Source: Mariniblastus sp. (GTDB lineage: Bacteria > Planctomycetota > Planctomycetia > Pirellulales > Pirellulaceae). Taken from it: a DNA stretch of 64,000 nucleotides. Under the pieces are notes generated by a model, which was given only the letters and a program-made list of their open reading frames with translations, searched no databases and was not told where the DNA came from. Location: assembly GCA_029247405.1 (NCBI GenBank), contig JAQWLH010000108.1, positions 1-64,000 of the forward strand, in the 5' to 3' direction. The position numbers were made by a program, and so were the translations under genes. This document shows positions 2,488 to 46,738 of this stretch, piece after piece. Numbering within the stretch: position 1 is the first letter of the stretch; each line of letters opens with the position of its first letter.

Positions 2488-3822
2488 ATGCGCAAAACCG
2501 GTTTATTAATCCAAATGAAACTCATCCTATTAGTAACGCTAATTGTTGGAGTTGGATCTGTCTCTCCATCGTGGGCATTTCAAACCTCAACTGGTTCAAA
2601 CCGCCCAACGCCAACTCCATGGCGACCTACGTTTGGCCCCGTTAATCGAACCGCCATGGAATCACGAGCAACCAACGGTTCGGACCTCACCCATTCCGCT
2701 GCGAGTTCGGGACGCAACATGTCTCCGGCGGCAGAAGCCAATGGAAAGAGCAATGCGGATTTACTCCAACCAAAAAATCCAGCGGATCAGGCCTCATCGA
2801 CCGATCCGGGCGTCACCCGAGTCACCAAGTCGATGGACAAGCTTCCCAACTCAGCAGGACAAATCTGGCGAGAATACGACATTTCGCCTTACACTTCTCA
2901 AATCACCAATTCCCAGAATCCGCAAAAAGCAATTACCGAGTGGATTCTGCGCGAAACCGGAACCGAGATGTGGTTCAACGAGCCACTCGGAATTTTAAAC
3001 GCCAGTAAGAACGAACTCCTCGTCTATCACACCCCCGAAATTCACGCAGTCGTCAAACGGATCGTTGACCGTTTCGTGAGGACACGGGGGCAAGTTCAAA
3101 ACATTGATGTCAATCTCGTCACCGTTGAAAACCCGAATTGGCGCTCCCTGTCTTACACGATGCTTCAGCCGATTAACGTACGCTCAGCTGGAGTCGAGGC
3201 TTGGATGATCTCCAAGGAAAACGCGGCGATCCTCATGAGCCAACTTTCGCAGCGAGGCGACTTTAAACAGCACAGCGGCGGACGACTAACGAATCACGAT
3301 GGCCAATCATTTGTGCTTGAAAAAACCCAACCCACTCAGTTTGTGCGAAGTCTTCGCTGGGTTCCCAATCAAGTCCCTAATTATCAGCCATTAATGACCA
3401 GTCTCAACGAAGGATATCGACTTTCCATCACCTCGCTTTCGTCGATGAACGACAGTGCAATCGAAGCGGTTATAAAATGTGACGTCGATCAGATCGAGAA
3501 ACTCAATACCGTTCGAGTCAATGTGCCCGCCATTGGTGGGGGTTCGCAAACGGTTAATTTAAAGGTTCCTCAACTAGTCAGCTGGCGGCTTCACGAGCGT
3601 TTCCGCTGGCCCAACGATCAAGTCCTGCTTTTAAGCTGTGGTGTCGTCGCCTCGCCTGACCCCGATTCAGAGGGGGGATTTCGAATTCCAGGCCGATCTC
3701 CCAAATCGAAACGGGCAGATGCCTTGGTTTTCATCGAGTATCGCGGCCCTGCCTCGGGACCGACGATAGGCCAAAACCGAACCGCTCAAAACCGCTTGGC
3801 ACCGCTTGTCGATCAAAAGTGA
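2488..3822 (+). CDS. Secretin N-domain-like exported protein, function unknown
   Basis: 444-aa ORF with signal-like N-terminus (LILLVTLIVGVGSVSPSWAF); NELLVYHTPEIHAVVKRIVDRF resembles secretin/STN N-domain segments; no long C-terminal secretin barrel obvious. Confidence 0.5.
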   Translation: MRKTGLLIQMKLILLVTLIVGVGSVSPSWAFQTSTGSNRPTPTPWRPTFGPVNRTAMESRATNGSDLTHSAASSGRNMSPAAEANGKSNADLLQPKNPADQASSTDPGVTRVTKSMDKLPNSAGQIWREYDISPYTSQITNSQNPQKAITEWILRETGTEMWFNEPLGILNASKNELLVYHTPEIHAVVKRIVDRFVRTRGQVQNIDVNLVTVENPNWRSLSYTMLQPINVRSAGVEAWMISKENAAILMSQLSQRGDFKQHSGGRLTNHDGQSFVLEKTQPTQFVRSLRWVPNQVPNYQPLMTSLNEGYRLSITSLSSMNDSAIEAVIKCDVDQIEKLNTVRVNVPAIGGGSQTVNLKVPQLVSWRLHERFRWPNDQVLLLSCGVVASPDPDSEGGFRIPGRSPKSKRADALVFIEYRGPASGPTIGQNRTAQNRLAPLVDQK

Positions 3823-3985
3823 GAGGGGCCGAAGGATTTTGATACGTGGTCGCCTCAAGTAAACTTAAACGATCGTCAAGTCACCTCGACTCGATTAAAC
3901 CGTTTCGTAGAATGTGGCTTCAGCGTTTTAGCTTAACCAGTTTTGTTTTTGTATTTACCCTCGCCTCCTGATTACCTTTCGATTC

Positions 3986-29536: not shown

Positions 29537-31354
29537 CTAATCCAGCCGTGTCAGCATTAACAAACGAAATTCGATCGATTCGTCACCGGGAATATCGAGG
29601 GTCTTGAGAACAAGCTTGCCTGGGCCTTGGGTCAGGGTAATGGTTCCCATTTCAAGCGGCTTAAAGTTCTTGACAAACGATTCGCCACGAACCGCACGAT
29701 CCTGTTTGGCACCAATCAGTTGGGAAACATGGGAAGCGACAATTTTGGTGGAAACTTTATTACCCCCCATCGAAAGCTCGACCACTGCTCCTAAGTCCTT
29801 CTTCGCACAACAGTAGTGAAGCTCGACTTTGTATTTCCCCGACTGCTGAATATCAACGGGCCAGGAAATAGTATCGTCTGTGTCGACCCAGTTCATCATA
29901 TACGAGCAATTGGGGAATCTATTGGACCGTTTCAGTTTACCGGAAATGACAGCATCCCGAGCGGGTAACTGGGTTTTCGTCATGCTCGGGTGACCGATTG
30001 GAAATAATCGCACTTCCGTGTGATTTAGCTCCGACAAGACGTCATTTCTGAATTCTTGGACGGCAGACTTTAGTTCAGCTACTACTTCGGGTTTGTCAGT
30101 CACTGGTTGCTTTTGGCCATGGTCATCAATCAGATCATAAAGTACTCCTTGGCTGTCCAACCGATAACGTTCACTTCGAACGCTGACTCTATTTTTCCAA
30201 CAGGAGAAAAACTTTCGGGACGGACGATTGACTTTCGAACCCAAAAGATCCAGATGGATCGACATCCCATCAAACTCTTTATTTGGCTCGTATTTTTTTT
30301 CGATTCCGCACAATGCCATCAAAGTTGGAAACAAGTCGATTGCACCTGAAACGGTATTGACCACCGACCCCGGTTTAATCTTGGCGGGCCAACGCATGAA
30401 CAGCGGTGAGTGCACGCCCCCTTCATCCGTCGAACCCTTACGCCCTTTGAAGCCGGCGTTATAGCGTGTGCCGTTGGGGCCATTGTCACAAAAGTAAATC
30501 ACAATCGTGTTGTCAGCCAAATTTAGCTCATCCAGTTTTGCCAAGACACGCCCTACGTTTTCATCGATATTCTCACACATGGCCAATGCCGCCCTCGCGT
30601 GATCAAGACCTTTGCCTTTTTGCTTGCTCGCTTTTTTGAATTGCGGCGGAAGCTGCGTCAACGGTTTGTCTTTGAACTTATTCCAATGCTTGTCAGGAAC
30701 TTGCATGGGTGAGTGAGGCGTGTTGTAAGGTAAATAAACAAAAAATGGATTGTCACGATTTTGTTCGATAAAACTGATGGCATGATTCGTGAAATCGTCG
30801 ACGACAAAACCCTTTCCACGAACGAGTTCTCCATTGTGCTCGAGGACCGGATCAAAATAATGCCCCCAATGCCCACTGCAGAATCCATAATATTCTTCAA
30901 ACCCGCGGGAATTGGGATGAAAGGGAGCTTGCATCCCGTTGTGCCATTTACCAAATGCTGCTGTTGCGTATCCGGCCTGCTGAAAAGCCTCCGCAATCGT
31001 CATTTCATCAAGGTCCAATCGTTCTCCACCGGCAGAAGTCGAATAAACCCCTCCGCGTGGATGATACCGCCCCGTCAGAAACTCGGCCCGGGTAGGTGAA
31101 CAAACCGGGCAAACATAAAAGTTTGAGACGAAAGCACCCTCGCGTGCCAACCCGTCAATATTAGGTGTCGCCAGATCTTTATTGCCGGTGTAACTGAAAT
31201 CACCATAGCCTTGATCATCAGACAAAAAAACAATGACATTGGGAAGCGCTTCAACTGATGCATCAACAACGGCTAAAGATTTTCGAAGTAAGATTAGCGA
31301 CACCAACATCGCGACTGTGACAAAAGGGATCCATCGTCGGTTCATCTGATTCAA
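29537..31354 (-). CDS. Arylsulfatase (formylglycine type) with C-terminal accessory domain
   Basis: NVIVFLSDDQGYGDFSYTGN; PVCSPTRAEFLTGRYHPR (CxPxR); C-terminal beta-rich segment WVDTDDTISWPVDIQQSGKYKVELHY. Confidence 0.93.
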   Translation of the reverse strand: MNQMNRRWIPFVTVAMLVSLILLRKSLAVVDASVEALPNVIVFLSDDQGYGDFSYTGNKDLATPNIDGLAREGAFVSNFYVCPVCSPTRAEFLTGRYHPRGGVYSTSAGGERLDLDEMTIAEAFQQAGYATAAFGKWHNGMQAPFHPNSRGFEEYYGFCSGHWGHYFDPVLEHNGELVRGKGFVVDDFTNHAISFIEQNRDNPFFVYLPYNTPHSPMQVPDKHWNKFKDKPLTQLPPQFKKASKQKGKGLDHARAALAMCENIDENVGRVLAKLDELNLADNTIVIYFCDNGPNGTRYNAGFKGRKGSTDEGGVHSPLFMRWPAKIKPGSVVNTVSGAIDLFPTLMALCGIEKKYEPNKEFDGMSIHLDLLGSKVNRPSRKFFSCWKNRVSVRSERYRLDSQGVLYDLIDDHGQKQPVTDKPEVVAELKSAVQEFRNDVLSELNHTEVRLFPIGHPSMTKTQLPARDAVISGKLKRSNRFPNCSYMMNWVDTDDTISWPVDIQQSGKYKVELHYCCAKKDLGAVVELSMGGNKVSTKIVASHVSQLIGAKQDRAVRGESFVKNFKPLEMGTITLTQGPGKLVLKTLDIPGDESIEFRLLMLTRLD

Positions 31355-34675: not shown

Positions 34676-34706
34676 GTGTTATCGTAAGCAAGGCTTGCAA
34701 TAACAC
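34676..34706. repeat. 31-nt imperfect palindrome
   Basis: gtgttatcgtaagcaaggcttgcaataacac; complementary arms with two G-T pairs. Confidence 0.8.
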
Positions 34707-34838
34707 TCCATAGAGCCAATTTGCTCGACTTTCTCGAATCCGCTCGCTACGATGCGACTGTTCTGTACGTCTGGAGACGGCAGATAAGGAGTTATCACCG
34801 ACCCGACACAAATACATAGTTATCCACCTTAAGAATCT

Positions 34839-35330
34839 ATGACTGAACGCGCGGCGAAATCGAACTGGAAGACTCTTGATGCGCCGCAGCAATGCGAACC
34901 GCTGGAATACGAGTACGTTTTCGACGACGCAGATGCAGACCGCCTGCAACTTGGATTAATCCCCCGAGAAATGGAGGACAAATGGTTTGTCTATTTTGAA
35001 AACGGCTGGGTCTACCTGCACCGTAGCTGGACTGGGTTCCTGATTTATTGGCTCAGACTAGATGGCTGTCCCGACGGTGTTCGCGTTGTCGAATCGTGGG
35101 TTAATCGTAACTCAGATCAATATCTTGAAACCGATACGGCATATGACCGGATGATGCTTGATTTCTTGCTTCGACGGATGCTTCTCGGCCACGAAGTAGA
35201 TTTCCCCGTGCGATCCGCCGATAACCCAACCAATACACCCGGTGTTTATCAACATCACGTCGTAGGGCGAGCCTATCCTGAGAAAACTGTCTCTGATGGC
35301 AACTCAAACGACGAACCAGACCGTGGATAA
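34839..35330 (+). CDS. Hypothetical cytosolic protein (163 aa), cassette-like
   Basis: ORF MTERAAKSNWKTLDAPQQCEPLEYEYVF...; stop TAA lies inside a GATAACAA half-site. Confidence 0.7.
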   Translation: MTERAAKSNWKTLDAPQQCEPLEYEYVFDDADADRLQLGLIPREMEDKWFVYFENGWVYLHRSWTGFLIYWLRLDGCPDGVRVVESWVNRNSDQYLETDTAYDRMMLDFLLRRMLLGHEVDFPVRSADNPTNTPGVYQHHVVGRAYPEKTVSDGNSNDEPDRG

Positions 35331-35344
35331 CAAATTGATGAGCT
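35327..35344 (+). repeat. attC-like left half-site
   Basis: GATAACAAATTGATGAGC overlapping stop codon of preceding gene; no right half found. Confidence 0.4.
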
Positions 35345-35354
35345 TGCGCTGCTT

Positions 35355-35601
35355 ATGCCGGGCGGATTTGTGTTGGCTCTCCGCACCTACTGCGACGGTC
35401 CACGGAACGCGAAACTCAGTGAACACGATCATTACGGACCGTACGTGTACCTCAAAGTCATGACTTGGTCGGTTGCTGGAATTGATGGCAATTCAATTCA
35501 CGAGACTCATCAATGGCTAGGGCGAACCGTATCCCAAACTCAAAAAAGCACTCAAGGCCTGCAGCGACGGGATGTACCAGATCGCCACTCACGGCCGCTG
35601 A
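35355..35601 (+). pseudogene. Frameshifted small hypothetical gene
   Basis: MPGGFVLALRTYCDGPRNAKLSEHDHYGPYVYLKVMTWSVAGIDGNSIHETHQWLG continues in another frame as EPYPKLKKALKACSDGMYQIATHGR*; removing one G from the GGG run restores it. Confidence 0.5.
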
Positions 35602-35604
35602 GTT

Positions 35605-35771
35605 GATAACAAAGCGATGAACGCCGAGCCGTCAATACAAATGCACTTGGCATTGCTGCCGCTAAACAAACCTAAATTATTTTTGACAGTTCGAACTTGG
35701 TTCGTTCTAATCAAGATAGGCGGTTGACAGCAGGCAACATCGCTCGTCGACCCAGTGATCACGAACGCAAT
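35605..35771 (+). repeat. attC-like recombination site (degenerate)
   Basis: Left GATAACAAAGCGATGAAC (35605-35622), right AGTGATCACGAACGCAAT (35754-35771), partly complementary; lies just upstream of ATG 35781. Confidence 0.55.
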
Positions 35772-35780
35772 CCTGTTAAA

Positions 35781-36278
35781 ATGAACGTCAACCCTGACCA
35801 AAATCAAACAAACTTTGTCGGCACAAGAACGCCAGCCGTTCGAGCCGCACTGGCTGGCATTGCAGTTGCCGGTTTCCTGATACTGGGGTTCCTTTTCCTC
35901 CATTCGATGAAAATGCATGACTGGACGATTGCAATTTTATCGGTAGTTGGAGGGCTGTCGGTCATCCCGTGGGCTTCTCACCGATCATCTGCTCGAGATT
36001 GCTGGACAGGCACTGTGTCATTGGCGGCTGGGGCATTGTGTGGAATCGGCGCTGTTATGATTTATTTAGGAATGTTTCATTTCGAATGGTTTAGTGAAAT
36101 CTTCAATCACAAAGAAACCGGACCAATAGGAATGTCCCTTTTTGCAGCCTTAGGATTCGGTGTGGGTGGATATGCCACATTGCTTACACTGATTTGGTGT
36201 TCGTTGCCAACCAGTACGAGCGTTCCAACACTTTTCACAAGCTGCTTCAAAACAACATCATCACAAAAAGCAAGATAA
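35781..36278 (+). CDS. Hypothetical membrane protein (cassette-like)
   Basis: About four hydrophobic segments (AALAGIAVAGFLILGFLFL, TIAILSVVGGLSVIPW...); start ATG 35781 preferred; stop TAA inside GATAACAA motif. Confidence 0.7.
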   Translation: MNVNPDQNQTNFVGTRTPAVRAALAGIAVAGFLILGFLFLHSMKMHDWTIAILSVVGGLSVIPWASHRSSARDCWTGTVSLAAGALCGIGAVMIYLGMFHFEWFSEIFNHKETGPIGMSLFAALGFGVGGYATLLTLIWCSLPTSTSVPTLFTSCFKTTSSQKAR

Positions 36279-36360
36279 CAACCCGATGTGTCAATTCGCC
36301 CAAAGCGATTGTTTTGAATTTTAGATCACCGTGGCGTCTTGGTGATCGTGGCCGTTTGAC
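36274..36360 (+). repeat. attC-like recombination site
   Basis: Left GATAACAACCCGATGTGT (36274-36291), right GGTGATCGTGGCCGTTTGAC (36341-36360). Confidence 0.6.
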
Positions 36361-36478
36361 TTCTGCATCTCACAGAAATGAAGGCCGCTCAAACTCCACC
36401 GATTCCGCCGCTCAGAAATCATGCCGCGACCTCCGAAGATCGCAAGCGGTTTGAACCACTCCACCGGAATCCCTCCGT

Positions 36479-36601
36479 ATGAAATACACTCTCACCGTCT
36501 TCATGATATTGCTAATACTTGCCTGGCTGTCAGTGTTGCACGCTGAAGAATCCACCGAACAAGCTCGCTGGTGCGTTAAAGACCTAGGGTTCAAACCATG
36601 A
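36479..36601 (+). CDS. Candidate 40-aa exported/TM small protein, ATGA-coupled to next gene
   Basis: Manual translation MKYTLTVFMILLILAWLSVLHAEESTEQARWCVKDLGFKP*; TGA overlaps ATG at 36598. Confidence 0.5.
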   Translation: MKYTLTVFMILLILAWLSVLHAEESTEQARWCVKDLGFKP

Positions 36602-37050
36602 AAAGAAAGGCCACGTCCACTAACCAGAGCAGCGGTCACCCAAAAGTGTTATCCGACGTCGAGTTACCCAATCCATACTCGACACCAACCGCACCAGCAT
36701 CAGCCTCGAACGCCCAGTCGCAAGAATCGCAACCAATGTGGGCTGTTCGTGTCGCAATCGTATTCTGCACGTTGACGACCGTTATCTTTTTGCTTGCTGC
36801 GATTGTTCTTATCCCACAAGCCATCCGTCTTGCAAATGATGCGACGCAACTCCCGACGCAGTTCCAGAGCTCAAATGACGCAGCAATTCAGGGTAGTTGG
36901 TTGCTTGGCATTGCCAGTGTGTTTCTTGCTTTTTCCAATTTAGCAGCTGCGATTCTCGCCTATCGGAAACAGATCTATGTCGCATGGTCTATACTCGGAG
37001 CATCAGTTGCATCCTTTATTGGACTTGCAATCATTTTCAAGCCGACGTAA
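36598..37050 (+). CDS. Hypothetical membrane protein (150 aa)
   Basis: Several hydrophobic segments (VAIVFCTLTTVIFLLAAIVLIPQAI; GIASVFLAFSNLAAAILAY). Confidence 0.65.
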   Translation: MKRKATSTNQSSGHPKVLSDVELPNPYSTPTAPASASNAQSQESQPMWAVRVAIVFCTLTTVIFLLAAIVLIPQAIRLANDATQLPTQFQSSNDAAIQGSWLLGIASVFLAFSNLAAAILAYRKQIYVAWSILGASVASFIGLAIIFKPT

Positions 37051-37185
37051 TTGTAACCACGATCGCTTCACAACAATCTAACCCCCTAAAAGCGTCAGCG
37101 CCCCGGTGACGGCTTGGTCGCGGGATTGCTTGCGGGGCATAATCTATCACACCGCTTCGATTTCAGGCAGACGTGGTCGACCAGT

Positions 37186-37203
37186 GATTCGGCGGTCTTC
37201 ACC
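37186..37203 (+). repeat. attC-like right half-site (degenerate)
   Basis: AGTGATTCGGCGGTCTTC directly upstream of ATG 37224. Confidence 0.3.
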
Positions 37204-37223
37204 CTTATCCGGTTGATTACTCA

Positions 37224-37691
37224 ATGCAACCCAACAACAAAGTTGACGAAGCTGGCGAACGACGCATTTTGCGAGTGACTGCCTCAATCATTATCATTGG
37301 ATTTGTGGTGTATGGCATCGTCGTCGCAGCGGGTGAACAATCGGTTTCGGCGCCGCTCGGGATCGCGGCATTTACCGGTTTTGCGATTTTTACCGGAGTA
37401 TTAATGTCGACGATATTGGGCAGACTTTATCGCCAACACGAAGTTCGCGAGTTTAGACTTGATCTTGCGAATCTGATTCTGGTTTCCGTTTTGATCGCCA
37501 TGCCCTTCGCCGCCGCGAATACTGTCTGGGAAATTTTTCACATGCAGAACATCGACGGCGCCACAGAAAACAAGACCGCAGTGCTACTGGTACTGGCTGG
37601 CATCGCAGCATTCTTGTTGTTTCCCATTCTCGTCCTTACTGAGGCGTTGCTCCACTGGCATTCACTGTTTTCTAAAAACAGAAATCACTGA
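37224..37691 (+). CDS. Hypothetical membrane protein (155 aa)
   Basis: ORF with four hydrophobic segments (VTASIIIIGFVVYGIVVA; LVLAGIAAFLLFPILVLTEALL). Confidence 0.65.
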   Translation: MQPNNKVDEAGERRILRVTASIIIIGFVVYGIVVAAGEQSVSAPLGIAAFTGFAIFTGVLMSTILGRLYRQHEVREFRLDLANLILVSVLIAMPFAAANTVWEIFHMQNIDGATENKTAVLLVLAGIAAFLLFPILVLTEALLHWHSLFSKNRNH

Positions 37692-37707
37692 CATTTCCAC
37701 CCAACAC

Positions 37708-37932
37708 CATAAAACAATGCGAGGCATACAAAGCTCGCAAGGTCTGCAAAGTCGTGCGATGAAATGAACCAAGGGTATGCTTTTGAATGCTGCGATTGCA
37801 AGAAACAGAACGCTATAATGGATCTCGACTGATCGCAGTTCGCCGCTCATCAACAAAATACACCTACGTCGCCGACGGTGCGGGAGTTAAAGCAACGATC
37901 ACTCCGGCGAATCGATGATCAGCGTCGTTACC
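37708..37932 (+). repeat. attC-like half-site pair (degenerate, long spacing)
   Basis: Left CATAAAACAATGCGAGGC (37708-37725), right GATGATCAGCGTCGTTACC (37914-37932) just upstream of ATG 37952. Confidence 0.4.
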
Positions 37933-37951
37933 TGACTTGGAGAATCCAATT

Positions 37952-38503
37952 ATGGGGCTCGAAGCCGTTGAACTAGTGATGGATGTCGAAGATCGCTTTG
38001 GAACATCCCTGCCGGATGCTGAAATAGAACGTCTCCAGACGATAGGTGACTTACACGCGTTTTTGATGGCGCGCATTGAATCACAAAATCCTGATATTTG
38101 TCCGTCTGCAACAATGTTCTACCCCATTCGAAGAATCCTTGTTGACAAATTCAACGTCGACCGAGCCGACGTCAAACCGTCTTCACTATTGGAATGTCTG
38201 CTCGACACCGAGAATCGCAAACCATTCTGGCGAACGATTAAATCTACCTTAGCGACGCGATTACCAAATCTAAAACGATCCAGATGGCTGCAATGGTCCG
38301 GTGATATTTTTCCGCCTGAATGTTCAACAGTTTCTCAGCTCGCCAAACGATGCATCGAATTCAATCGAATCACGAACGAGTTCACTTCAAACGATGGTGA
38401 AGCTGTATTTGAGGTCGTGCGTCAACTTGTCGCAGCGGTTGCCGGAGTCGACAAATCGAGGCTAACCGCCCAAACAAATTTTGTGAATGACCTTGGGTTT
38501 TAA
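37952..38503 (+). CDS. Acyl-carrier-protein-like protein lacking the phosphopantetheine Ser motif
   Basis: Begins MGLEAVELVMDVEDRFGTSLPDAEIERLQTIGDLHAFL and ends VVRQLVAAVAGVDKSRLTAQTNFVNDLGF*; track ORF from TTG 37937. Confidence 0.65.
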   Translation: MGLEAVELVMDVEDRFGTSLPDAEIERLQTIGDLHAFLMARIESQNPDICPSATMFYPIRRILVDKFNVDRADVKPSSLLECLLDTENRKPFWRTIKSTLATRLPNLKRSRWLQWSGDIFPPECSTVSQLAKRCIEFNRITNEFTSNDGEAVFEVVRQLVAAVAGVDKSRLTAQTNFVNDLGF

Positions 38504-38523
38504 ACTGATGCAATAGTCACCAG

Positions 38524-38694
38524 ACGACAAGGTGATGTGCGCGAAGCAAACTGGGGTCTTGGCGCAGGTTCTGAACACATGTTTTCAACACCGCAATTTT
38601 GACAGCTCAAGCTCTTATCGGTCTAATCATGTCTGACCGTTGGCTTGATGGTGGTTCACGGGAACCGTCGGCCTGGTGATTTTTTACGTTCTAC
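38524..38694 (+). repeat. attC-like half-site pair (degenerate)
   Basis: Left ACGACAAGGTGATGTGC (38524-38540), right GGTGATTTTTTACGTTCTAC (38675-38694) just upstream of ATG 38724. Confidence 0.4.
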
Positions 38695-38723
38695 AACTCA
38701 TTCATTCAGGATTGGAAACATCG

Positions 38724-39569
38724 ATGAACCAGAAATTCGGCGAGGTTACGATCGCAGTATCTCTACTTGTTCTCCTCCTAATCGCTGTCACGGTTTCGAC
38801 CGCACAGGATGCAACGACGACGAATGAGCAATCGCAATCTGAATCTGACGGAACGACTCACGATCACCTTTGGACGAAAACCACAACCATTGGGCAGATT
38901 GTTGCTGACCGCCCCCAGACTGCACGAGTATTTGAACTCGTTGAGATCGACTATTGCTGTGGAGGGCAGGTCTCACTTGAAGATGCTGCTTTAGAAAAGC
39001 GAATTAAGGTTAACAGGTTACTCGCCGCACTATCTGCCGTGGGATCCGCCACTCAAGAAACCGGGAGACGCAATTGGCAAAAGGCGAACATTGGCGAATT
39101 GATGGACCATATCGTCGCTCGCCATCACACATGGTTGCGACGGGAATTACCGCCGCTGGTTGAAACAACGAAAACCGTCCACCGCGTCCATGGAAGGAAA
39201 CACACGGAACTAAAAAAGATTGCTGACATCGTCGCAAAATTGCCTGACGCTATCCTGCCTCACTTGGCCTACGAAGAACAAACTGTATTTCCTGCAATAA
39301 AAACTCTGGCAACCGGCAATCCGGTGAAAAACATCCCTCGTTTCTTGGAAGAAATGCGAACGGATCACGACCAAATAGGTGAACAGTTGCACGAGCTTCG
39401 AAAGCTCACTGGTGATTTTTTAATTCCAGAAGATGCGTGCGCCAAATACAGAGAAATGCTCACCGGGCTCGAGGCGCTGGAGCGTGACCTGCATATTCAC
39501 GTACACTTGGAAAACAACATATTGCTGTCACGGGCGCTCAAGTTGGCCGAATCTGCCAATGATCAGTGA
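38724..39569 (+). CDS. RIC/ScdA/YtfE-like di-iron hemerythrin protein with N-terminal signal/anchor
   Basis: TIGQIVADRPQTARVFELVEIDYCCGGQVSLEDAA (DUF542) then hemerythrin-like helices with HHTWLRRELP, HTELKKI, HLAYEEQTVFP, DHDQIGEQL; N-terminus MNQKFGEVTIAVSLLVLLLIAVTVSTAQ. Confidence 0.85.
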   Translation: MNQKFGEVTIAVSLLVLLLIAVTVSTAQDATTTNEQSQSESDGTTHDHLWTKTTTIGQIVADRPQTARVFELVEIDYCCGGQVSLEDAALEKRIKVNRLLAALSAVGSATQETGRRNWQKANIGELMDHIVARHHTWLRRELPPLVETTKTVHRVHGRKHTELKKIADIVAKLPDAILPHLAYEEQTVFPAIKTLATGNPVKNIPRFLEEMRTDHDQIGEQLHELRKLTGDFLIPEDACAKYREMLTGLEALERDLHIHVHLENNILLSRALKLAESANDQ

Positions 39570-40771
39570 AACTCGGTGCGGACCCTGTCGCAACGGCATG
39601 GAGTAAATCGGTGCACTGGAGTTGCGTGCTCGCACGTGTTTTAAAATTGATTAACTTATCGTTTCGATTCGGCAATCTATCCCGTCATCTACCGTGGGAG
39701 AGCAAAATTAATCCTCCATCATTGCATGTCATTTTGACTCTGATGCTTGGTTTACCATTGGCCGGCGTCACCAAGGCTCAAACGAATCGCGAACCGCCAT
39801 CAATAAATGAAACGGTCGTAAAACAAGCTCAAGTAGACCCGGCTCAAAAGAAACATGGGTTGATCGGCCTCCGCCCAATTCCAGCCGACCAAGCAGGAAC
39901 AAACCACAACCATGGCGGTTCGTGGGCAGGAATGCCAACCTACGACCAACAGAAAGGGAATTACCCATTTGTCGCCAAGCACATTGACACGCTATTCGGG
40001 TGGGTGCCCGATGGCGACTTTGAGACCAAGCGTATCTTTTTTGAGTACTACTGGGGGCTTAGTAAAAAACGAGACAACCTCGACCCAAACAAGAATCAAT
40101 TGATCCAGACAATTCGTCGATGGGAACAGCGAGGCGGTGAAATTGAACATATCCTCATCTGTCGGGAAGCACGATTAGCGGTCAAACGTGGTTGGGCAGA
40201 TGCTGAACTCGGACCCTTCAAAGAAGATGGGCGAATTCTTTCTGAAAAAGATATCGACGACATACGCCAGCTTTTTAAGGACGCTTACGCGCAAGACCTT
40301 ACGAAACACACTGACTACAAATTACTCATGATGGTCGAGGAGCCAACTTTTTTTTCGACCAATGCGAAGGCGCAGAAAATAATCAAAATGACCAGTGGCG
40401 TGGCATACGAAGCCCATCAGTTCAACCGGCATTGGCCACTGGAAACTGGTTGGTCCAAACCTAAAGAAGTTGTCGCGGGTGCGAAATGGACCCTGGAGCA
40501 AGACCTCGACTACGTTTTTTACTATGGACCTATCCTTTGGAAACAAGACAAGAGCTACGAGCCTTTGCTCGAACGAAAGTGGCTCGAATCGTTTTGGGCA
40601 GCGGGACTTCCTAAACAGCATACAAAGATGCACTATTACCTCAACTTATTTCCACACCACACTGGCCGGAATCGACCGGTCGGTCCAGAATCCAATCCTC
40701 ACTCAATCCTCGGATTTACCAAGTGGATGATTGAAGAGGTAAAATTCAATACTCAACAGCCAAATGAATAA
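39566..40771 (+). CDS. Exported hypothetical protein (start uncertain)
   Basis: 401-aa ORF; signal-like LHVILTLMLGLPLAGVTKAQ; stop TAA inside AATAACAA half-site. Confidence 0.65.
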   Translation: MKLGADPVATAWSKSVHWSCVLARVLKLINLSFRFGNLSRHLPWESKINPPSLHVILTLMLGLPLAGVTKAQTNREPPSINETVVKQAQVDPAQKKHGLIGLRPIPADQAGTNHNHGGSWAGMPTYDQQKGNYPFVAKHIDTLFGWVPDGDFETKRIFFEYYWGLSKKRDNLDPNKNQLIQTIRRWEQRGGEIEHILICREARLAVKRGWADAELGPFKEDGRILSEKDIDDIRQLFKDAYAQDLTKHTDYKLLMMVEEPTFFSTNAKAQKIIKMTSGVAYEAHQFNRHWPLETGWSKPKEVVAGAKWTLEQDLDYVFYYGPILWKQDKSYEPLLERKWLESFWAAGLPKQHTKMHYYLNLFPHHTGRNRPVGPESNPHSILGFTKWMIEEVKFNTQQPNE

Positions 40772-40856
40772 CAAACAACTGAACTTGTTCTTGCCGATGG
40801 CGTGTTTTGATTGAAACAAAGACCACTTTGGCGGCTCGCTGATCGTTGCCGTTATG
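40766..40856 (+). repeat. attC-like recombination site
   Basis: Left GAATAACAAACAACTGAAC (40766-40784), right GCTGATCGTTGCCGTTATG (40838-40856); ATAAC/GTTAT termini complementary. Confidence 0.6.
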
Positions 40857-40933
40857 CCTTGGGAAATTAATGCAAAGAGGATTCGAAGTCGCTCGTTGAT
40901 TTTCTCCATTGTCTGGTTTGAGCGTCGTGAAGG

Positions 40934-41059
40934 TTGAATGAAACGCATCACACAGACGATCATGACAATCCTGCTGCGCCCTTTGTCATCGCATTGGGGC
41001 TTCTTGTGTTCGGAGTACTTGGAGTGATTGCCATTCCACTTTCTGTACGCGGACATTGA
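40934..41059 (+). CDS. Candidate 41-aa single-TM small protein (TTG start)
   Basis: Manual translation MNETHHTDDHDNPAAPFVIALGLLVFGVLGVIAIPLSVRGH*; follows attC-like site. Confidence 0.35.
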   Translation: MNETHHTDDHDNPAAPFVIALGLLVFGVLGVIAIPLSVRGH

Positions 41060-42336
41060 AAACACCGATGTGGGCCTAGACAAATACACGGCTCAAAGAG
41101 AACGTTAACGCCTACCGAAATAGCGGAACAGGGTGGATCAGGAAGCTTAATCGTTGACCAACTCGACTGGGGTGGCAAATCAAAATATTGTTGGTGAACT
41201 CCTGAAGAGGTTGAGGCAATTACTCCACAACCGGTTACCCTCTTGGCTGACCGCATCAAATCACGTGAATCCAAACTTAATGCCGATGAACTTTCACTTG
41301 ATCGATGGATCTACAACACCTATTTGGATCCTTTCAGCGGCATTGCATACCTCATTACGATAGAACGTGGTGATCTTTTAGCGTCACAACTCCAGGCCGA
41401 TATGACCAAGTTAAAACTGATTGAAACTTGGTCAGGTCCTGTAAAGAAATTTGGTTTGCAAAACGCCGAATGACAAGCCAGACATCACAGAAACGAAGCT
41501 TGGGCCCTTTCAAATGGCCCCTCACTCGTCGCGGACCTGTTATGGCGAACGACGTATCAAAATGCACGACCAGACGCCGAGATCAAGTATCACGACGAAG
41601 GGACTCATGCTGGGCTTGGATGGCGCGAGCCGCTGCTGCCGCTCCTTTATCGTTGAAAAATGCCGCTTCAGCTGCCGAGAACGCGCTAATTGCTCAAATC
41701 AAAATTACGATTCAGCACGCGACCACGCTTGCGAGATTAATCATGATCAGTCAGCAAGTTAGAAAGCTATCTTTGTCCTATGTCCTGCGGAAGTCGGGAG
41801 AAGGCCACTGGTTTCAACGGTTGATTAGCTTGGACGCCCCAAAAAAGGGAATAGAAATCTGGCGGTCTTAACGCTAATTTTTGTCAATCGGCGGTGTTCA
41901 CTCGCTCTGCTCATGTTTGTATTTTGGATGCCCAGGGATACGTTGCACCAATTAGCACCGCTGAGCGAAACCAAATCGACGACGACCGCTGCGGATTTTC
42001 TCCGTTCGCGGGTTGGTTTCCTCTGCTACTGCTCCGATGCGATAGCTGGCGTGGCACCCCAATATAGCGCGAGACCTTTGTATTTCTTGCGATATTGGAC
42101 GGTTCTTGTATGGAATCCAAATTCAAGTTTTGCACCTCGATAATTGACCGCCATTTTATTAGACTTACGTCTCGCCAACGTGGGGTAGATCTCTCACCAT
42201 GGCGGTTTGTTCGCGAGTCGACATCGACGTTTTGATTTAGTGGCGATAGTGGAGGGGGGAACTCACCTCGACAACCGCATGAACAGAACGCACCAGACAA
42301 CCAGATAGGCTTATATTTTTAGTCAATATCTGTTTT

Positions 42337-43599: not shown

Positions 43600-43941
43600 C
43601 GCGTATACGAATGCGGAACTATGATTTTTAGGGGAAATTTCGATCGAACTTTAAACAACAATTTCCTCATTGTCTAGGCAGTCCGAGAGCAAAGTATGCC
43701 GCTGCGCCTCGATCGGGTTCCGCCCAGTCTCAAACGTTTCCAGAGATACAACTGCCAGTAGTTCTTTTGCAACTCCGGCTGGATCATGAATCTCTGCGAG
43801 AGTGTAAGATAGTGTTTGCTCGATTATCACACTGAAGGCCTAAACGTGCTTGAATGCAAACTAAAATCGATTTTCCGTCGTGGACTTTTCTCAGAAGTAT
43901 CGAATGCTTCATCTCCCTTAACAGGGAACCGTTTGACAAGC

Positions 43942-45273
43942 ATGGCTGTGCCCACCATGTCTCCCGCATCGGTGGTCCTCGTTTGGTTTAAAACAACTCT
44001 TTGCTTGCTGGCTTGTCTCGTCGGTGGGGCGACGCCGAATCTATCGCTCGCCGATCGTCCACCCAACATTGTCGTCATTCTTGCTGACGACTTGGGCTGT
44101 TGCGACATGGACCTGTACGGCGGCTGGGTTAAAACCCCGCGCATCAAAGAAATGGCTCAACAGGGGATGCTCTTTACTGACTTCCACACCAACTCTTCGG
44201 TTTGCAGCCCGACCCGTGCCGCATTCCTTACTGGCCGATATCAGCAGCGTGTCGGCATCGTGGATGTGATCGTGGGTAGTCGAGAACCGGAAAGTGGAAT
44301 CAAGCCCTCGGTCCCAACTCTCCCGCGTGTGTTGAAGGACAATGGCTACGCGACGGGCCTATTTGGCAAATGGCACTGCGGGTATCAAGACGCATACAAC
44401 CCAACCCACCACGGCTTCGATGAATTCGTCGGTTTTCTCAATGGGGCGACGGATTATCACCAACATGGTGCGTGGCGAGTCGGCCTCGAAAAGAAGAACG
44501 TGCCTGGTTATTCGACCCACATCATCACCGATCGAAGCGTCGACTTCATCAAACGCAACCAAGATAAACCGTTCTTCCTTTATGTGTCGCACGCGGCGGT
44601 ACACAATCCCTACCAAAGCATCGAGGACACTCCCGACAAACGCAACAAAGGCGAAAACCCCAACCGGATCAACGACAAGAACCGAGCCAAGTACAAGTGG
44701 ATGCTTGAGGATATGGATCAGGGCGTCGGAAAAATCCTCGACACACTCGCAGAACTCAACCTCGCAGAAAACACCTTGGTCATGTTCTTCTCGGACAATG
44801 GTGCCGTAGGAATGTGCCCGAAGGAATTCCGTAAATATCGCGGGGGCAAGTTTAGCCACTACGAAGGAGGGCATCGAGTCCCAGCGATTGCCTGGTGGCC
44901 GGGCAAGGTCGCGCCAGGTACTCGGTCCGACAAACTGGTCGTCGGCTTCGACCTGTTCCCGACGTTCACTGAAATCGCTGGCCTCACAAAACACACGCCC
45001 GCTAATCTTGATGGTAAAAGTTTCAAGTCGCATTTATTAGAGCAACAAGACTTCCCGGATCGAACTATCTTTTTTGGTTACGAACCCAAACTCGGGACAG
45101 CAATGCGGCGCGGTGATTGGAAAATGATAATCAAACAAAACAACGTCCAACTCTTTAACCTTCAGAACGATCCTCGGGAAACGACCAATGTGGCTTCCCA
45201 AAATTCTGAAATCACCCAATCCATGAGACAAGCGATTGAGCGGTTCAAAGCAGAGGTTACGCCTGGATCATAG
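43942..45273 (+). CDS. Arylsulfatase
   Basis: RPPNIVVILADDLGCCDMDLYGG; NSSVCSPTRAAFLTGRYQQR; ATG 43942 gives a signal peptide. Confidence 0.94.
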   Translation: MAVPTMSPASVVLVWFKTTLCLLACLVGGATPNLSLADRPPNIVVILADDLGCCDMDLYGGWVKTPRIKEMAQQGMLFTDFHTNSSVCSPTRAAFLTGRYQQRVGIVDVIVGSREPESGIKPSVPTLPRVLKDNGYATGLFGKWHCGYQDAYNPTHHGFDEFVGFLNGATDYHQHGAWRVGLEKKNVPGYSTHIITDRSVDFIKRNQDKPFFLYVSHAAVHNPYQSIEDTPDKRNKGENPNRINDKNRAKYKWMLEDMDQGVGKILDTLAELNLAENTLVMFFSDNGAVGMCPKEFRKYRGGKFSHYEGGHRVPAIAWWPGKVAPGTRSDKLVVGFDLFPTFTEIAGLTKHTPANLDGKSFKSHLLEQQDFPDRTIFFGYEPKLGTAMRRGDWKMIIKQNNVQLFNLQNDPRETTNVASQNSEITQSMRQAIERFKAEVTPGS

Positions 45274-45331: not shown

Positions 45332-46738
45332 ATGGGAAAGAACTCATGTATTTTATTTGGCGTACTATTGGTCTTCCTGACGGCCTTGACTCAGCAAGTC
45401 AGTGCGCAGGCCGAGAAAACCACCAAGTTACGTCAACCGCATATGGTGCTGTTCCTCGCCGACGACTTAGGTTGGGGCGATGTCGGTTACCACGGTAGCC
45501 AGATTAAGACGCCGCATATTGATGCCCTCGCTGAAGCTGGCACGCGATTGAATCGTTTTTATGTGATGCCGGTTTGTTCGCCGACTCGTGGGGCACTCAT
45601 GACAGGACGGTACCCTGTACATTTGGGCCTTCAATGCGGTGTTGTTCGACCTTGGGCCGAGCACGGTTTGCCGACCGACGAACGCACCCTCCCGCAAGCG
45701 CTTCAGGAGGTGGGTTATAAAACAGCAATCGTTGGCAAATGGCATTTGGGCCATAACGACCCTTCGTTCCTTCCTACCAATCGTGGATTTGACCATCAAT
45801 ACGGCCACTACAATGGCGCATTGGATTACTTCACGCATATCCGTGACGGCGGCCATGACTGGCATCGCAACGATCGACGGAACGATGACCCGGGCTATAC
45901 GACCGAACTCATTGCTCGGGAGGCGACACGAGTCATTGAGCAGCATGACCCCTCGAAGCCCTTGTTCCTGTATGTGCCGTTCAACGCCCCGCACAGTCCC
46001 ATTCAGGCACCCGAAAAGTACATTCAACGATACTCCGAAATTAAAAATCCAAAACGCCGAGTTTTCGCGGCGATGGTCGACTGCATGGATGACGCAATCG
46101 GTCAGATCATGGAACAACTCAAAGCCAGTGGGTTTGCGCCTGAAAACACCCTCGTCATTTTCGCGAGCGACAACGGCGGCATCGTCCAATTTGGATCCGT
46201 TGGACCATGGCGAGGACAAAAAGGAAAGCTGTACGAGGGCGGTGTCCGTTCCCCGACCATTGTTGTTTGGAAGGGACAACTCAAACCAGGAAGTCAAGTC
46301 AATGAACCAATGCACATCGTCGATTTGTACCCCACCTTGCTGCGACTCGCCGGCGCTGACCTGAAACAAGCCAAGCCGCTCGATGGCCATGATGCATGGC
46401 CTACGATTTCAACTGGCAAGCCTTCGCCACACACTTCGATCTTGCTCAACAGCACACCTTTTACTGGCGCCGTCCTCGAGGGGAACTGGAAACTCATTTG
46501 GAACGGGCAAGTCCGAGCCAACCAAACCGAGCTACCTAAAAATGAACTCTGGGAATTATACGATCTTGCCAACGACCCGACCGAGAGCAACAACCTCTAC
46601 GCCAAACAACCTGAGATCGCCTCTCGCTTGAAAAAGGTAGTTCAAGACTATCGCAACAAAGCAGCAAAGCCAAACATTCCACCCAACCGCACCCCCAAAG
46701 ATTTCAACACGCCCGCCGTGTGGGGTGAATTCAGATAA
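45332..46738 (+). CDS. Arylsulfatase
   Basis: HMVLFLADDLGWGDVGYHGS; VMPVCSPTRGALMTGRYPVH; signal peptide. Confidence 0.95.
   Translation: MGKNSCILFGVLLVFLTALTQQVSAQAEKTTKLRQPHMVLFLADDLGWGDVGYHGSQIKTPHIDALAEAGTRLNRFYVMPVCSPTRGALMTGRYPVHLGLQCGVVRPWAEHGLPTDERTLPQALQEVGYKTAIVGKWHLGHNDPSFLPTNRGFDHQYGHYNGALDYFTHIRDGGHDWHRNDRRNDDPGYTTELIAREATRVIEQHDPSKPLFLYVPFNAPHSPIQAPEKYIQRYSEIKNPKRRVFAAMVDCMDDAIGQIMEQLKASGFAPENTLVIFASDNGGIVQFGSVGPWRGQKGKLYEGGVRSPTIVVWKGQLKPGSQVNEPMHIVDLYPTLLRLAGADLKQAKPLDGHDAWPTISTGKPSPHTSILLNSTPFTGAVLEGNWKLIWNGQVRANQTELPKNELWELYDLANDPTESNNLYAKQPEIASRLKKVVQDYRNKAAKPNIPPNRTPKDFNTPAVWGEFR

Follow-up and report, generated by a model that had tools for sequence, protein, structure and literature searches.

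An integrase-less cassette array in Mariniblastus sp. that is very probably the relic of a chromosomal integron

Is a row of small genes separated by attC-like sequences, with no integron integrase nearby, simply a cluster of attC sites, or is it what remains of an integron? A locus in Mariniblastus sp. raises this question, and we addressed it in a stretch of 64,000 nucleotides (the window) compared with the rest of the source genome and with related genomes. A preliminary description had read the locus as a candidate CALIN with attC-like half-sites between small genes. That reading was right in kind, as the region is a CALIN, a decaying cassette array with attI at its head and no integrase; four of its attC sites are supported by covariance models and are decayed, and the head of the array, with its attI and intI promoter sequences, had been overlooked. 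We conclude that positions 34676 to 40857 are, in all likelihood, the relic of a chromosomal integron in which intI has been lost and the attC sites are eroding. The CALIN state here probably arose through loss of intI, and to call it the relic of a once-complete integron is more apt than to call it just a cluster of attC sites. The assembly of the source genome is fragmented and 84% complete, and within it the contig carrying an integrase gene (C166) and the contigs carrying arrays could not be joined.

attC sites and their erosion

Narrow DNA patterns for attC gave nearly no matches in the same genome or in relatives because the relatives' sites differ, and an Rfam gathering search of the window returned the tRNA only. 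We prepared covariance models of our own. A search of 148 related genomes for integron integrase loci gave 55 with a match at E<=1e-40; the flanking DNA was taken, and 63 attC sites were collected from it by pattern and pairing. Alignment of 51 of these produced a 20-pair hairpin with compensatory changes at 14 pairs, a count that is not independent proof of the fold since pairing had been used to select the sites. This alignment gave model R1, which is the broader of the two; sites located with it in the same genus and on other contigs of the same genome, 21 in number, gave a second model, R2, which was then applied to the window. Both models are free of window sequence, and their E-values are rough.

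The four best R2 matches in the window all fell within the array and on one strand, at 29.5, 28.9, 23.7 and 20.4 bits, the next match scoring 9.7 bits. Control sequence totalling 91 kb gave R2 matches of 17.0 bits at most, followed by 10.7; we rejected the 17-bit match, on contig C58, as chance, the sequence around it having no other signs of an array. The window sites are individually weak under R1, and a single one of them passes E<0.01: 36273-36360 has E=0.001, and 37848-37933 has E=0.34, both for a search of the window. Across the genome the strong R1 matches are on C180, C268 and C99, mostly at 36-80 bits versus at most 22 bits for the window sites, and below these came the window site at 36273, the highest-scoring one anywhere but on those array contigs. 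The four window sites belong to the attC family of the relatives' arrays.

All four sites lie on the plus strand. The site at 35604-35773 is 170 nt long (R2 29.5 bits, E=8e-5 on 64 kb) and keeps 11 of the 20 stem pairs; its right core has changed from GTT to GCA, breaking an R box. Fourteen pairs are kept in each of the next two, an 88-nt site at 36273-36360 (R1 22.2 bits, R2 28.9 bits) and an 86-nt site at 37848-37933 (R2 20.4 bits). The last recognisable site, 92 nt at 40766-40857 (R2 23.7 bits), keeps 9 pairs and intact R boxes, and has a 77% blastn match to part of an attC site in the C180 array. Counted as Watson-Crick pairs of the model stem, the window sites thus retain 9-14 of 20, compared with 16-20 in other arrays, where one site has 13. 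Both AAC/GTT R boxes are kept in three of the four.

The half-sites that had first drawn attention to the locus held up in part. Exact copies of the left half GATAACAANNNGATG number only three in the window, all on the plus strand and at places given in the preliminary description (35326, 35605 and 36274); among the others named there, 38523 carries two mismatches, 40766 reads AATAACAAACAACTG and 37708 has no match. With up to two mismatches GATAACAANNNGATG occurs 13 times in the window versus 5.25 +/- 2.3 times in shuffled sequence, a number reached by none of 100 shuffles, and such matches are also scattered outside the array. The right halves at 36342, 37915 and 40839 are the only ones in the window with at most one mismatch, all of them in the array and on the plus strand, whereas at two mismatches the right-half pattern is not above chance (30 matches versus 23.6 expected; 9 of 100 shuffles had as many), and the one proposed at 37186 was not recovered. 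The covariance models support pairing of the halves at the four sites listed above; some of the pairings first proposed are wrong, and the partner of the right half at 37914 is at about 37848 rather than at 37708. The TAA stop codons do lie inside left halves as described, at 35328-35330, 36276-36278 and 40769-40771.

Three further places may be half-lost attC sites: 35326, about 37053-37200, and 38523-38695, where complete sites have no covariance-model support. The exact left half at 35326-35340 (plus strand) is probably what is left of the attC site of cassette 1; no right half was found for it, and no model matched it. At 38523-38695 (plus strand) a possible eroded site has a left and a right half, each with two mismatches.

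Free single-strand DNA folding proved not to be a discriminating test for attC sites. The partly complementary halves noted earlier still form 9-14 model pairs, but as free folds the window sites were not much better than shuffled sequences (z from -1.9 to +0.6), and two of three better-preserved sites failed the same shuffle test. Folding does not separate the window sites from better-preserved ones, and we therefore argue for decay from the model and not from energies.

The attI end and the missing integrase

Ahead of the first cassette, the segment 34676-34834 (minus strand) is a remnant of an intI promoter and attI region, matching C166:72-229 by blastn with 70% identity over 159 bp (E=2.6e-12). 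Its counterpart on C166 is the 159 bp before intI, in reversed orientation, and the alignment stops shortly beyond the attI core GTTAT; the segment also aligns with the attI region of genome G027 in a three-way alignment. The predicted crossover core, placed by comparison with known attI sites, is GTTATCC at 34819-34825 (plus strand), where the window and C166 have CATAGTTAT in common and the window and G027 have TAGTTAT in common. GTTAT occupies the expected crossover in all three sequences, and a few bases beyond it they cease to resemble one another, the pattern that an attI with a different first cassette at each locus would give. The DNA running from attI into cassette 1 was not found in the 27 other genomes of the genus.

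Within this remnant lies a 29-bp imperfect palindrome, TGTTATCGTAAGCAAGGCTTGCAATAACA, at 34677-34705. Elements of this type (TGTTATTGC...GCAATAACA) stand upstream of intI in two genomes, on C166 (L010:200-228) and, as a looser variant, in G027 (L049:1213), and the element has been kept in the relic. No copy was found in the other arrays and intI loci scanned, or elsewhere in the window. By eye it is not of the LexA type, and it is a possible intI operator.

No integrase gene is present in the window, as had been reported. Neither tblastn nor Smith-Waterman comparison against shuffled sequence detected an intI remnant to the left of 34676, and a 9-base match near the expected intI start codon was within chance. 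A search of the genome with TIGR02249 found no integrase on contig C112, which carries the array; an intI elsewhere in the genome, which the preliminary description had suggested looking for, is present on C166, whose IntI scores 356 bits against a cut-off of 265 and is an intact-looking, full-length ORF with Pfam domains. Of the other integrases found, that of G027 is nearest to it, at 72% identity. The locus thus has no functional intI beside its attI and array, as a complete integron would. In another genome, G025, which is a single contig, an integron integrase gene scores in two pieces (L139; G025:C1:3500502-3501203), and R1 finds no attC site at E<=0.01 in the 20 kb beside it.

Cassette genes and chromosomal setting

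The genes of the array are all on the plus strand. Cassette 1 (34839-35330) encodes a 163-aa protein with no Pfam, NCBIfam or PADLOC family. Its relatives, 45-48% identical, are attC-bounded cassettes in three genomes of the same family (G210, G213 and G257); there are scattered relatives in other phyla, one relative is titled Pirellula sp., which together with the gene content of the source genome suggests a Pirellulaceae-like planctomycete, and the gene was found in none of the 27 other genomes of the genus. Cassette 2 is a weak 83-aa ORF (35355-35606) that may not be a gene; its end falls within the left half of the attC site that follows. Cassettes 3, 4 and 5 are ORFs for hydrophobic proteins: 165 aa at 35781-36278, with its stop inside an attC left half; 150 aa at 36598-37050, of an NPYSTP type, with similar NPY-TP motif proteins that the same genome encodes in its C180 array; and 155 aa at 37224-37691. 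Cassette 6 (37952-38503) encodes a 183-aa acyl-carrier-protein-like protein (PF00550, E=2.4e-9). It is followed by a 281-aa iron-sulfur cluster repair protein of the RIC/YtfE/ScdA type at 38724-39569 (TIGR03652, 231.7 bits, cut-off 204.7) and by a 401-aa ORF of no family at 39566-40771, whose start is uncertain and whose stop lies inside the last attC site.

Distant relatives of cassette 6 occur in attC-rich loci, but its close relatives elsewhere lie neither in arrays nor next to attC sites, and the 63-64% identical relatives of the 401-aa ORF in G187 and G260 are not next to attC sites either, so that comparison shows a cassette origin for cassette 1 only. No PADLOC defence family was found in the array, and no cassette gene of the window has a match in the C180, C268 or C99 arrays.

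The chromosomal site is also known without the array. Genome G024 has an empty site, with about 270 bp between the esterase gene (80% identical) and its neighbour tRNA-Arg(tct), whereas the two are separated in the window by 8.5 kb of DNA that includes the array. Gene order is not conserved across related genomes, a comparison that the preliminary description had proposed. Genome G020 has a SulP-like transporter gene, named by sequence, between the esterase and tRNA-Arg (L127:1932-4139), so that the content of this interval differs between species even where there is no integron. In G003 two attC sites lie upstream of the esterase gene in the opposite orientation (L121:2907-3001 and 3749-3840); the history of the locus may thus be more complex, and integrons may have been present at the esterase on more than one occasion. 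An explanation of these reversed sites by joined contig ends (C189 and C14) could not be demonstrated from the assembly. The integrase flanks of the same-genus genomes contain neither the esterase nor tRNA-Arg, and no relative was found with intI at this locus.

The roughly 1.5 kb from the last attC site to tRNA-Arg (40858-42336) contains doubtful ORFs only and may hold further eroded cassettes. Sulfatase genes, which are common in planctomycetes, flank the array at 29537-31354, 43816-45273 and 45332-46738 of the window.

Origin of the array and comparison with known integrons

The history we propose begins with successive capture of cassettes at the attI core 34819-34825 by an integron integrase, presumably of the C166 type, whose gene would have lain just to the left of attI on the minus strand. 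This intI would then have been lost, most likely by a deletion with one end within or close to the 5' end of the gene, a cause we infer, as the searches gave no fragment of intI. No longer under selection at this locus, the attC hairpins have eroded, and what is left is an array with attI at its head, no integrase, and genes that are probably mostly fixed cargo by now.

The serious rival to this history holds that there was never a full integron here, and that a rearrangement or partial duplication brought the attI end and first cassettes from the other integron of the genome without its intI. As such a copy would predict, the attI most similar to that of the window is the one on C166, within the same genome, and the strongest attC similarity is with the C180 array; the two attI regions are however merely 70% identical and no cassette gene matches C180, C268 or C99, so that any such event must be old. 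We consider this account possible but the less favored one, and it differs from the loss of intI in place solely in history. It is improbable, in our view, that the array is still in use, with the IntI of C166 acting in trans at this second attI as well as at the better attC sites. The attI core and three of four sites do retain both AAC/GTT R boxes, the genome has an intact-looking integrase, and trans mobilisation of CALINs has been described (PMC12444791), but stem pairing of 9-14 of 20, compared with mostly 16-20 elsewhere, suggests that there has been no recent selection on these sites. A narrower form, in which the relic would be a second landing platform without integrase at whose attI the C166 IntI still inserts cassettes, also seems improbable; if true, one integrase would serve two attI-headed arrays in one genome.

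Insertion of cassettes at a secondary site by an IntI encoded elsewhere, with attI never present, is a general route proposed for CALINs (PMC8618304), but would not explain why this array is headed by a 159-bp attI/promoter homologue, which largely refutes it and makes it very unlikely here. Chance resemblance within an ordinary gene cluster might be suspected from the right-half pattern and the weak folds, but the model matches, the attI homology, the empty site and the cassette relatives are independent lines that agree, and together they refute it in practice; we give it hardly any weight. The relic of an integron that lost intI thus stays our preferred reading. It puts on view an integron partway through decay, with the attI/promoter remnant still readable, the attC hairpins partly gone and the genes still open. 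It could serve as a reference for locating older relics that standard attC models may have overlooked, and as a case for asking whether captured genes remain useful once their integron is dead.

Like other CALINs, a term used here, with the proposed origins, as in the literature (PMC8618304, PMC12444791), the array combines two or more attC sites with small genes in one orientation and has no intI nearby; unlike them, it retains a remnant of attI and the intI promoter and has strongly eroded attC sites. It has the attC type of its relatives' arrays in common with the sedentary chromosomal integrons of Planctomycetes, for which a phylum-specific attC model exists (PMC8352920), but its locus is without an integrase gene. 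Frequent intI pseudogenes have been reported (PMC2426708), and progressive inactivation of integrons has been described (PMC12444791). The inactivated integrons of Xanthomonas in the latter work resemble the present case in that intI was lost or inactivated and a static array followed; they differ in belonging to another phylum, and the genome studied here has another, intact-looking intI with arrays of its own and window attC sites that are barely recognisable. The C180, C268 and C99 arrays and the C166 intI of the same genome have the same attC family and a related attI, whereas the window sites score far lower with R1. Integrons and CALINs are thus already known from Planctomycetes, and the region 34676-40857 is a new and unusually legible example of them, instructive rather than a new kind of element.
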